A DNA stretch of 64,000 nucleotides from Vanrija pseudolonga (lineage: Eukaryota; Basidiomycota; Tremellomycetes; Trichosporonales; Trichosporonaceae). Position numbers and translations under genes: made by a program. The stretch covers positions 3,534,001 to 3,598,000 of the forward strand of contig NC_085851.1 in assembly GCF_020906515.1 (NCBI RefSeq). The letters run 5' to 3'. Below the pieces are notes generated by a model. The model had not been told where the DNA came from. It saw only the letters and a list, made by a program, of their open reading frames with translations, and made no database searches. How positions within the stretch are numbered: position 1 is the first letter of the stretch; every line of letters begins with the position of its first letter. Of the stretch, positions 42,638 to 46,929 are shown one piece after another.

Positions 42638-43248
42638 ATGCCCCCACGCAAGAAGACTGCGGCATCGTCGGCTCGAGGTGCTGCAGCTGCTGCGACCGCC
42701 GCCAAGAAAGCCAGCAAGGCGGCACAGTCGCGCACGAAGCAGCCCCCCGCGCCCACATACCGCGTGATCTGTAAGTGGGAGAACGCGCGGCGCTGATCCA
42801 AGACCGCTTCCGGGACGCATACGAGGACGAGCACAACGACTACACGGTTGGGCGGTACGCGAGCCCCGCCGACGCGAGGGCAAAAGTCCGCTCCTATCTG
42901 TCCGACGAGTTTGGCGACGACGCCGGCCGGGAGGAGCTCGACGAGTCGGACAAGGGCGACGTGAGCGGCGGGTTCGAGGTCCACGCCATCGACAGCGAGA
43001 GCAACGAGTACTGGGTGTTCATGGAGGAGGACGCGCCGCTCGTCGGCGCGCTCGAGGGGCCGCGGACGCGGAGGGAGGTCCGCCCGGAGAAGGTGTACGC
43101 CGTCGTCCAGCGCCGCGGGACGGGGGAGAAACGCGTCGATGACAGGGTATATGATTCGCGTGAAGCAGCCGAGGCGGCCGTGCAGCTCGTGCCGGGTGTG
43201 CGCGGCTCGGCGGTGGACGTTGTCGAGCTCGAGGTCGTGTACGGCTAG
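42638..43248 (+). CDS. Tandem K/A-rich family, copy 1
   Basis: Two exons (42638-42770, 42803-43248) give 192 residues. The N-terminus MPPRKKTAASSARGAAAA is basic and Ala/Lys-rich, like a histone H1 tail. The conserved intron (phase 1) follows YRVI and is only 32 nt here. Domain A comes next (VGRYASPADARAKVRSYL ... GDVSGGFEVHAIDSESNEYW), then module C (EKVYAVVQRRGTGEKRVDD, VYDSREAAEAA, VELEVVYG). I do not recognise either domain. Without splicing the frame stops at the TGA that forms the branch point. The copy looks intact. Four relatives follow within 3.7 kb on the same strand. Confidence 0.8.
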
Positions 43249-43334
43249 CTCGTAGCGGTATGCACTTTTGGCCGCGGTGGAGGGCTTGTTATTGTAAGGA
43301 ACGCCGCGACGCGTCTTGCACTCGCCCACACCAC

Positions 43335-44013
43335 ATGCCACCACGAAGGAAGCCCAGGGCAGGCGCTGCGGCCGCTGCTGCCGCCGTCGTCGTCGTAGCC
43401 TCTTCGGCCAAGAAGGCGGATAAGCAGGGCACGAAGGCGGCCCCAAGACGCAGCGCGCAGCGGACGTATCCCGTGCTGTGTGAGCCTTGCCGGCGGCATG
43501 GCACAGCTGACACGCCCAGACCGCGTCCGGCGGCAGCACGACGAGTCGACAGAAGAGCACGCGGTGGGCCGGTACGTCGTCTACGCCGACGCCAAGGCCA
43601 AGGTGCGCGCGTTCCTGCCGGAATGGTACCATGAGCTCTCGGACGGCGACTGGCAGGAGTACGCCGAGATGGAGGAGGGCGAGCTGAGCGGGGGGTTCGA
43701 GGTGCATGTCGTCGATCCGGAGGGGGACGACTATTGGGTGTGCGTGGAGGAGGACGTGCCGAGCTCGAGTGCGCGCGTGGCTGCGGCGTCGTCGGCGCCA
43801 GCACCAGCGCCGGTGCAGGTGCCGGTGCCACCCCCGCCGCGACATGCGCCGGAGACGGTGTACGCCGTCGTCGCGCGCCGCGGCCGGGGCGAGAAACGGG
43901 TCGATGATACCGTGTACACGAGCCGCGAGGCGGCCGACGCCGCGGCGGACGACGTGCCGCGGACCCCCGGCACGGCGATCGCGGTCGTCGAGCTCACGGT
44001 TGTGTACAGCTAG
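43335..44013 (+). CDS. Tandem K/A-rich family, copy 2
   Basis: Two exons (43335-43479, 43520-44013) give 212 residues, starting 86 bp after copy 1 ends. The intron is 40 nt, in the same place and phase as in copy 1. The N-terminus is MPPRRKPRAGAAAA, with a Val run. Domain A reads VGRYVVYADAKAKVRAFL ... GELSGGFEVHVVDPEGDDYW. A Pro/Ala/Val-rich hinge leads to module C (ETVYAVVARRGRGEKRVDD, VYTSREAADAA, VELTVVYS). The closeness to copy 1 in module C suggests recent duplication. The copy is intact; function unknown. Confidence 0.8.
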
Positions 44014-44157
44014 CTACGCGGTGTGATGTATGGACGTCCAGCTTACTGGTGGCAGCGAGATGGGGGGCGGCCGCAGCTGCCGCTGCCGTTTCAGGCTACG
44101 GCTGCTCATCCGACAAGCGCGCCGAGCTTGTTGACAACATACATACTCTCCACCACT

Positions 44158-44634
44158 ATGCCGGACCGCAAAGCCAAGGAGATCGCCGTCGCAGAGGCGG
44201 CCAAGAAGGCAGCCAAGCAGCCTGCGACGAAGCAGGCGGAGCCGCAGCAGACGTACCGCGTGATCTGTGAGTCCGCACCCAGCCCTTACAAAGCTGACGC
44301 CCCCAGACCGGTTCTTCGACACCGCCTCCGCGCCGAGTCGCACGAGGACGAGGTGGTAGGCAGGTACGCGAGCTACAACAAGGCCCGGGCCAAAGTGGCC
44401 AAGTACCTCGTGGACCAGTACGGCCGCGACTACTTTGACGAGTACACCGAGTCGGAGGAGGGCGACGTGAGCGGCGACTACGAGATCTATGCGCTCTGTC
44501 CCGAGGGCGAGGAGATGTGGGTCTTTGTCGAGGCGGAGGGGCCGCTCGACGACTCGTCGTCCGAGAGCGAGCCCGCGGATGAGGACGACAACGCCGAGGA
44601 CGACGAGGGCAGCGACGCGTTGGAGGACCTGTAG
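44158..44634 (+). CDS. Tandem K/A-rich family, copy 3 (short, splicing unclear)
   Basis: One uninterrupted frame gives 158 residues: MPDRKAKEIAVAEAAKKAAK, YRVI, domain A (VGRYASYNKARAKVAKYL ... GDVSGDYEIYALCPEGEEMW) and a very acidic Ser/Asp/Glu tail instead of module C. The family intron is recognisable (GTGAGT at 44267 to CCCCCAG at 44306, 40 nt). Removing it would put domain A out of frame and stop soon after. So either the intron is kept, or one base was gained or lost after the splice site and the copy is damaged. The lack of module C also sets it apart. Confidence 0.55.
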   Translation: MPDRKAKEIAVAEAAKKAAKQPATKQAEPQQTYRVICESAPSPYKADAPRPVLRHRLRAESHEDEVVGRYASYNKARAKVAKYLVDQYGRDYFDEYTESEEGDVSGDYEIYALCPEGEEMWVFVEAEGPLDDSSSESEPADEDDNAEDDEGSDALEDL

Positions 44635-44837
44635 AGGACGCGATGCATGTGTCCTTGTTGTTTGGCTCGACGACGCGTTTGATTTTTGGCTGGCTTGGCC
44701 CATTTCGGCAAGCGCCAAAGTGGAGGTGGTCCAAAGTCCAGTCAACCGGTCGGCGGGGGCGGGGGAGATATCCGGGCAGTAGATTGATTGCCCCAGCGAT
44801 CCTTCAACCTTCCTACATCTCACTCTACACGTCCATC

Positions 44838-46090
44838 ATGCCCCCTCGCAAGGCCAAGACCTTCGCGGCTTCAGAGGCGGCGAAGAAGGCAGCGAAGGCG
44901 CCCGCGACGAAGAAAGCAGCTGCGCCAAAGAAGGCAGCCGCGCCAAAGAAGACAGCTCCGGCAACCAAGGCAGCACCAGCACCCAAGAACGCAGCGCCCG
45001 CAATGGCTGCGGCGGAACAGGGCTACCGTGTCATTTGTGAGAAGCCTCAGCAGCAATCTTCTGACAGCCCCAGTCCGCGAGCACGACCGACCCAACGGGG
45101 CCAAGTACCCCACGGACGAGGTCGTAGGCGTGTACCCGACCCTGGCGGCTGCCAAGAAGGTCGTCCACACGCACCTCTTCAAGCATTGGGATATGGAGTG
45201 GCTCGACTCGTACGTCGAGTACCCCGAGGGCCAGGGGAGGCTGAGCGATGGATGAGAGGTGTACGCTGTCGGTGCTGAGGGTGAGGAGATGTGGGTGTTC
45301 ACCGAGGTGGACGACGGGCTGCCGCGCAAGAGTCCAGGACAAGACGAGGACGACAGCGGCTTCTTTGGGTTACAGAAGAACTCTTCTGGCATCTTTCGGC
45401 TCCTCCAGGGGCATTATGACGCTCAGGACATGATCGACATCGGGCACTTTGACGAGAAGCCGAACGATGCCGACGCCTGGTCGTCAGATCACGTCGCTTA
45501 TGAGGCTTGGGATCCTTTTGGCATACCGGCCCCAAAGAAGAAGGCCTCACCTCCAAAGGACGATGGAGTCAAGCGGCCGTACCATGTGATCCGTGAGTCC
45601 TGTCTCTCCGCGACGTGGCTGATTCCAGGCCGTGAGCACGACCACCACAACTCGGTCAAGGAGCCCGAGGACGAGTTTGTCCGCGCGTACGCGACGTACG
45701 CCGAAGCGCGCGAGGTCGCGAGCACGTGGATCTCGAGCCAGTGGGGCGTGCATGTCGACGAGAGGGAGAAGGGCACCATCTGTGGCGGGTACGAGACATA
45801 CGCTACGTTTCTCGAGGGCGAGGAGATGTGGATCTTCGTCCAGGAAGAGGGCACGAGGCGGCTCGGTGCGTACACCAGCTAAGGGGGAGCGCTAACATCT
45901 CAGGTGGACCAGACGGCACAGTCGCGCCCGAGTCGGTATTTGTCGTCGTCGAGCGGCGCGGCGCGTCAGAAAGCGCGTCGGTGGGGTGGTGTACAACACG
46001 CATGCGGCTGCCACTGCCGCGTCCGAGGCCCACCGCGCGCCCCAGGGATCCAAGGTCGACATCGTCGAAATGAAGGTCTTCTACGCGTGA
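44838..46090 (+). pseudogene. Tandem K/A-rich family, double-domain copy 4/5, probably broken
   Basis: This is the longest member: a Lys/Ala/Pro-rich tail with APKK repeats (exon 44838-45036), a first domain A (exon from 45074), a ~90-residue linker, a second domain A (exons to 45592 and 45629-45865) and a module C (from 45904). Introns after YRVI and YHVI match the family position and phase. In the first domain A the word expected as SGGYEVYA reads SDG, then TGA at 45253, then EVYA, so an in-frame stop replaces the aromatic residue. In module C one base seems to be missing near 45970: the upstream frame reads ERRGASE and the frame one over continues KRV ... DIVEMKVFYA to a stop at 46088. Stop read-through or assembly error could also explain this, but two separate lesions favour a decaying copy. 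Confidence 0.65.
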
Positions 46091-46265
46091 CGGCCGGCGT
46101 GGGGTCGTGCGTTGCGCCACCGAGGGGAAGTGCAGTGACCCACCCATGTCGAGTCCAGTCAACTGGTGTGGTCTGTGCGAATGGATATGATATCTTTGGA
46201 CACATGTACATAAGTGGACTTCCTTTGGACCTCGAGACGCGGTATTCTCAACTCGACCCCGTAAC

Positions 46266-46929
46266 ATGCCCCCTCGGAAGACCAAGACTGTGGCGGTGGC
46301 TGCCGCCGCCAAGAAGGCAGCAAGGAAGCCCCCAATGGCCAGGACGACGGCCGTAGTGTCTCCGCCAGGACAGGGGGACGACCTCGACACCAGAGGGGAG
46401 GCCAAGCGCTTCCGCGTCTTCCGTAAGCCTGTTCCCGTCACCTAAGCTGACACCAGACCGCGTGTGGCGCAACCACCGCCTGACGGAACCCCCGACGCGC
46501 GAGGAGCTGCTGGGCGAGTTCCCGACCTTCCTCGCGGCACGGCAAGCGGCCACGTCGCACATTGTGCAGATTGCCGCGCGCGGCCAGATGACGCCGATGC
46601 CGAATGCGGGCCTGGGGGACATATACTTTGGCGGCGCGAAGGGCGGCGTGGAGGGCGTGCTCCTCGAGGAGGTCGGCGCGCCGCGGATCGGTGAGCGAGT
46701 GGTGGTGCGGCGCGGTGCGTTGGCTGACTGGTGCTTTATAGGCGGCGCAAACCCTTCCCCAGCGCCATGGAGCGTGTTTGCGCTCGTCGAGCGACGGCGC
46801 AGCGGCGACAAGCGCATCGGCGACACGGTGTACGCGTCCCGTGCGAGCGCCGACGCGGCTGCGGGCCAGCTCACGGCGCCGAGGGGCGCGGCTATCGCTG
46901 TCGTCGAGGCCAAGGTGTGGTATGGTTGA
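46266..46929 (+). CDS. Tandem K/A-rich family, copy 6 (divergent)
   Basis: Three exons (46266-46422, 46457-46690, 46742-46929) give 192 residues. The N-terminus MPPRKTKTVAVAAAAKKAAR and the intron after FRVF match the family. Domain A has diverged strongly (LLGEFPTFLAARQAATSHIV ... KGGVEGVLLEE) and lost the acidic GGYEVYA core. Module C is well kept (SVFALVERRRSGDKRIGD, VYASRASADAA, VEAKVWYG). The second intron (46691-46741) is 51 nt, in frame and stop-free, and a matching intron exists in copy 4/5 but not in copies 1 and 2. The gene ends 49 bp before the stop of the convergent monooxygenase. Confidence 0.75.

Follow-up and report, generated by a model that had tools for sequence, protein, structure and literature searches.

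The question raised by this locus is what kind of proteins are encoded by five neighbouring genes of the basidiomycete yeast Vanrija pseudolonga (Trichosporonales) that are built to one plan. The genes, here called g1 to g5, stand in tandem on the plus strand at 42638-46929 of the window, by which we mean the whole stretch of 64,000 nucleotides that was analysed (positions 3534001-3598000 of a contig in a genome of 24.87 Mb). In public records, four of the five are annotated whole, as uncharacterised proteins, and g4 is annotated in part (locus tags LOC62_03G004947, 4948, 4949, 4951 and 4952). The answer we prefer, and hold only tentatively, is that they are a tandem-amplified family of the Vanrija lineage in which a Lys/Ala tail, disordered by prediction, is followed by modules resembling the domain DUF7336 (PF24024), and that the proteins may work as tail-anchored adaptors or inhibitors.

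Rebuilt gene models confirmed the array of five plus-strand genes that a first-pass annotation of this DNA had described. In g1-g5 alike, a basic Ala/Lys tail comes first, the position of a phase-1 intron is the same and the domains are related. All five first exons (133, 145, 109, 199 and 157 nt in g1 to g5) end in phase 1 and, as had been claimed, a YRVI-like word (YRVI, YPVL or FRVF) precedes the first intron in each gene; these introns run from GT to AG over 32, 40, 40, 37 and 34 nt. The gaps between the genes, put at about 85-205 bp by the earlier annotation, were found to range from 86 to 203 bp (86, 144, 203 and 175 bp along the array from g1 to g5). Such tight spacing would allow joint transcripts, which are described for mushroom-forming fungi (PMC4503453). 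The proteins of g1 and g2 are only 51% identical, on which ground a recent tandem duplication was rejected; because of this divergence the copies of the array are, judged by sequence, probably old. A low-complexity artefact, which had been denied from the start, was ruled out by predicted folds, coinciding introns and conserved exons.

The layout of the modules is best seen in g1 (LOC62_03G004947, 42638-43248, 192 aa), whose spliced model with an intron at 42771-42802 gives the public protein P0001. Behind its tail lies domain A (residues 40-121, 42755-43032 with the intron included), for which the order beta-beta-alpha-beta-beta-beta is predicted, followed by module C (43090-43245), predicted as beta-beta-alpha-beta. 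The beta-beta-alpha-beta core is predicted for both and, as far as the models go, domain A and module C are probably one kind of domain. The earlier statement that neither domain matches a known family held in so far as no curated cut-off was reached; it did not hold in so far as both resemble DUF7336 by profile and share a predicted core. The accession of DUF7336 was confirmed with consensus sequences; the profile used for comparison comprised 18 bacterial and phage rows (5 of 13 plasmid matches, one of two phage matches and all 12 genome loci), of which row L021 ends at 39 aa by a stop. In hhalign, domain A scored 29.7 against this profile (probability 70%) and module C 25.6 (57%). Column-shuffled profiles reached at most 19.2 for A and 14.9 for C, none of 200 attaining the real score for either, and with reversed profiles the scores fell to 7.7 and 7.8. 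The likeness lies in the predicted strand-strand-helix-strand order of A and C, a hydrophobic strand, a joint of the type G-x-[YF]-x-[ST] and a helix in which Ala recurs at fixed intervals. Furthermore, a hidden Markov model (HMM) of the DUF7336 rows was placed 18 times in the 12 proteins of the family, and 17 of these placements fell on A, A-like or C modules. A fold search with module C returned, among the 50 best of 854 rows, six phage proteins named DUF7336, weakly matched.

A number of results weigh against a close relation. The hhalign probabilities are modest and only 20-30 columns were aligned; with the profiles swapped, the scores were 26.7 for A and 22.6 for C with probabilities of 48% and 30%, subsets of domain A gave 21.1-23.8 (14-27%) and the A-like part of g5, at 13.8, barely matched. 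The HMM, used unfiltered, reached a maximum of 13.3 bits over the 12 proteins, where the curated cut-off of Pfam is 25 bits; its single placements were individually weak (E 0.0017 to 4.6) and one of the 18 lay in the tail of P0003. When 11 distinct proteins of the family (P0012 excluded) were scanned against Pfam, in 12 scans altogether, no DUF7336 row appeared at E <=10, and a search of the V. pseudolonga genome with DUF7336 found nothing, while the same search was positive in 3 of 14 control genomes. The C-terminal ending W-x-x-G-[FY] is present in 17 of 18 DUF7336 rows and in none of the 12 array proteins. Fold matches at E <=0.001 amounted to 2 of 1,055 rows for g1 and none of 854 for module C, and the predicted template modelling (pTM) score of the model was 0.46. 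When A and C were compared directly, the profile match was weak and 9 of 200 shuffles reached the score, so that homology of the two is unsupported by this comparison. Since the Pfam cut-off was missed, the alignment covers 20-30 columns only, the ending is absent and the genome search came back empty, we call A and C DUF7336-like, a term for a resemblance of profiles and predicted folds, and do not take them for members of DUF7336. The settings differ as well: DUF7336 is a small, widespread bacterial and phage domain, whereas the array proteins are fungal, intron-bearing and basic-tailed and usually carry two modules each.

The remaining matches in Pfam, NCBIfam and PHROGs were only rows below cut-off or without function and were set aside. 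They were, for the acidic end of g3, Iwr1 (E 0.029 and 0.14) and NOA36; for P0004, Phytase-like (E 0.021); for the front of g2, CU044_5270 (E 0.0015), whose 18.4 bits fall short of its cut-off of 100; and further EbpS, PRK05641 and three PHROG rows (E 0.025-1). The sequences of solved structures gave two rows for A (E 0.43 and 0.86) and none for C. In a tblastn of phage records, P0001 had two matches (E 1 and 4), the one in a Vibrio phage being apparently unrelated, and P0004 had none. The word DUF7336 had no match in the literature searched, and the main text of PMC12820176 uses neither "tandem" nor "orphan".

By fold, the g1 model resembles small viral proteins that have no assigned function. 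Foldseek assigned a probability of 1.00 to 17 of the 50 best rows in BFVD, among them E5E424 of Acinetobacter phage Acj61 with a template modelling (TM) score of 0.61 of the target. E5E424 is taken to be the product of gene Acj61p043 by its length (92 aa) and its motif, the genes of that length in the initial 50 kb of the phage genome having been compared; Acj61p043 carries VVGMYNSAESAKADL at the joint of strand and helix. For the Acj61 protein, Pfam gave nothing and PHROGs a single row (E 0.21), and viral proteins such as E5E424 differ from the array proteins in having no basic tail and share about 13% identity with them. In PDB the best E value was 0.2 among 632 rows. The archaeal ribosomal protein aL45 (8hku) and TGAM_1934 (2mcf) resemble the model in fold only, with 7-11% identity, below the level that excludes chance. 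The resemblance to aL45 would fit ribosome-associated small proteins, in which A sits on the ribosome and the tail threads into rRNA; we regard such a role as very improbable. The small inhibitors Gp2 (4llg, in complex with RNA polymerase), Had1 (8tto) and 8g9s chain A, which belongs to a type I-C CRISPR entry and is taken to be an anti-CRISPR, have no sequence relation to the array proteins, and other, unrelated proteins score alike.

How could proteins of this build work? Small sheet-and-helix proteins often work by binding a partner. The isoelectric point (pI) of the tail is 9.7-12.0 in all five genes and that of domain A is 4.2-4.5 in g1, g2 and g3; the modules of g5 are basic, with pI 8.6 for the A-like part and 10.0 for C. 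The previously noted pairing of a basic tail with an acidic domain is therefore right for all five tails and for the three A domains scored, and does not extend to g5. We propose small modular proteins in which one or two modules of beta-beta-alpha-beta build stand behind a Lys/Ala-rich tail that is predicted to be disordered. The tail would hold the protein to nucleic acid or another acidic surface, the modules would act as adaptors or inhibitors, with the exposed sheet as the face that grips a partner protein, and the diverged copies would serve different partners or variants of one partner. The first-pass annotation had read the same charges as a sign of a nucleic-acid or chromatin partner. 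On that view DNA or RNA would be bound by the basic tail, in the manner of linker-histone tails, and domain A, being acidic, would recruit or displace histones or other basic partners; alternatively, the modules themselves would touch nucleic acid. No DNA- or histone-binding domain above cut-off was found in the 12 Pfam scans or with NCBIfam, a bacterial and archaeal library, in seven proteins, and we regard this explanation as possible, though rather doubtful. The look-alikes do not separate the two: among the solved look-alikes of module C are two phage inhibitors, but the list is mixed, and because the inhibitors stand amid DNA-binding domains of papillomavirus E2, PII, ribosomal proteins, enzyme subunits and a putative RNA-binding protein, protein binding and nucleic-acid binding are not distinguished by it. 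This mixture, too, speaks against adaptors or inhibitors, the answer we still prefer, and shifts a little weight to the nucleic-acid explanation.

Protein searches of 5.8 billion sequences found 12 proteins of the family, of which five are from V. pseudolonga, one is from V. albida (P0004) and six are from a second source. The latter six, each listed with one 33,197-bp contig, comprise counterparts of all five array genes; the entries are taken for one and the same contig, and their sequences are, by similarity, probably those of another Vanrija. So far, the family has been seen only in Vanrija and this probable close relative, and the lineage-specific character expected for it apparently applies, named homologues among the 12 proteins coming from Vanrija alone. 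The protein search depends on shared words of five residues and limits length (in one run, scoring was confined to the 7,997 candidates that shared the most words), so that relatives outside Vanrija may be missed. Within the V. pseudolonga genome, all clear matches lie in the array, as judged with a tool that scores only its best candidates. In one search seven of nine places were there; the remaining two, both weak (one at E 0.026 with internal stops, the other at E 0.17), are taken for chance. P0004 has two domain A units, a tail and an acidic end. Its public name, "glycosylphosphatidylinositol anchor biosynthesis", is likely wrong, the Pfam scan having revealed no such domain.

The five genes are not equally well kept. 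Most of them end in module C, which is intact in g1, g2 and g5, frameshifted in g4 and absent from g3, and the loss, doubling and decay of domains that had been read from the array are all present. Gene g2 (LOC62_03G004948, 43335-44013, 212 aa, intron 43480-43519; letters identical to P0005) encodes tail, A, a Pro/Ala linker and C. In g3 (LOC62_03G004949, 44158-44634, 149 aa), tail and A are followed by an acidic C-terminus; removal of 40 bp at the site shared with the other genes (44267-44306) would throw the second exon out of frame. The frame is kept either with a 27-bp intron, as in the public protein P0003, or with the intron read through. Gene g4 (44838-46090) is a double unit of tail, A1, linker, A2 and C that is broken twice, by an in-frame TGA within A1 and by the frameshift in module C; its annotated piece is the 3' part (LOC62_03G004951, P0007, 220 aa). 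Since its second unit has a 36-nt intron (45593-45628) at the position known from the single genes, behind a K-rich stretch, g4 apparently arose when two genes of the array fused. Gene g5 (LOC62_03G004952, P0006, 46266-46929, 192 aa, introns 46423-46456 and 46691-46741) has a tail, a divergent A-like part and module C; the domain A profile scored 26.3 on the A-like part and none of 200 shuffles reached this value. The array has ordinary flanks, with a V-SNARE gene upstream and an FMO-like oxidoreductase downstream.

The stop and frameshift in g4 and the unusual splice needed by g3 raise the possibility that the array is a remnant, its genes mostly without function and its reading frames kept only by annotation. 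The lower conservation of g3 and of parts of g4 agrees with this: g3 is identical to P0008 in 53 of 94 and to P0010 in 43 of 64 positions, the first unit of g4 to its counterpart in 44 of 60, and the next stretch of g4, which runs into linker, intron and change of frame, in 65 of 155. On the other hand, g1, g2 and g5 are open and, with gaps left out, identical to their counterparts in 126/156, 114/137 and 128/155 positions (81-83%), and the counterpart P0012 is open at the site of the TGA in g4. An internal control was provided by P0011, the counterpart of g5, which reads through its intron: exon codons agree in 123 of 137 cases and intron codons in 3 of 16 (Fisher p 3.5e-9, two boundary codons excluded). 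Because the exon codons are kept and the intron codons are not, this points to selection on the g5 protein, by a codon-agreement test that is a proxy for one gene and not a ratio of nonsynonymous to synonymous substitution rates (dN/dS). A decaying copy was likewise rejected for g5, which is divergent and yet conserved in P0011 (the 128 agreeing residues of 155 include the read-through intron). We therefore hold a remnant array to be unlikely. The label "fast-evolving" given to the family is too strong in view of the identities of g1, g2 and g5 and of the contrast of exon and intron codons in g5; the identities of g3 and g4 are lower.

A more specific form of the inhibitor reading takes up the bacterial side of DUF7336. 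The place just behind an Rhs gene is the usual seat of immunity genes. By annotation only, a DUF7336 gene follows an Rhs gene at about 30 bp on a Moraxella osloensis plasmid (L015 1-307) and in Pseudomonas phage vB_Pae_U1 (L019 1-337); annotated neighbours within 100 bp were present at four of the 18 DUF7336 rows, these two included, and the remaining pair (L014 and L018) has no Rhs gene in that range, while the other 14 rows carry no annotation. By this position, some DUF7336 proteins may serve as immunity proteins against Rhs. A DUF7336-type domain could have entered the fungal lineage from a bacterium or phage, gained a basic tail and been amplified in tandem into a diverged set of immunity or inhibitor proteins. 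Each copy would neutralise its own variant of an antagonist, for example a toxin made by a competitor or a viral protein, in likeness to the multi-immunity arrays of bacteria. We give this chain of events very little probability.

In sum, an orphan fungal family whose members are called "uncharacterized protein" in one species and carry a GPI-anchor name in another is tied, by resemblance, to a small bacterial and phage fold. Its compact array allows duplication, fusion, loss of a module and decay of one unit to be compared across closely related species. Should the immunity or inhibitor reading be right, V. pseudolonga would provide a eukaryotic example of such arrays, which are known from bacteria.

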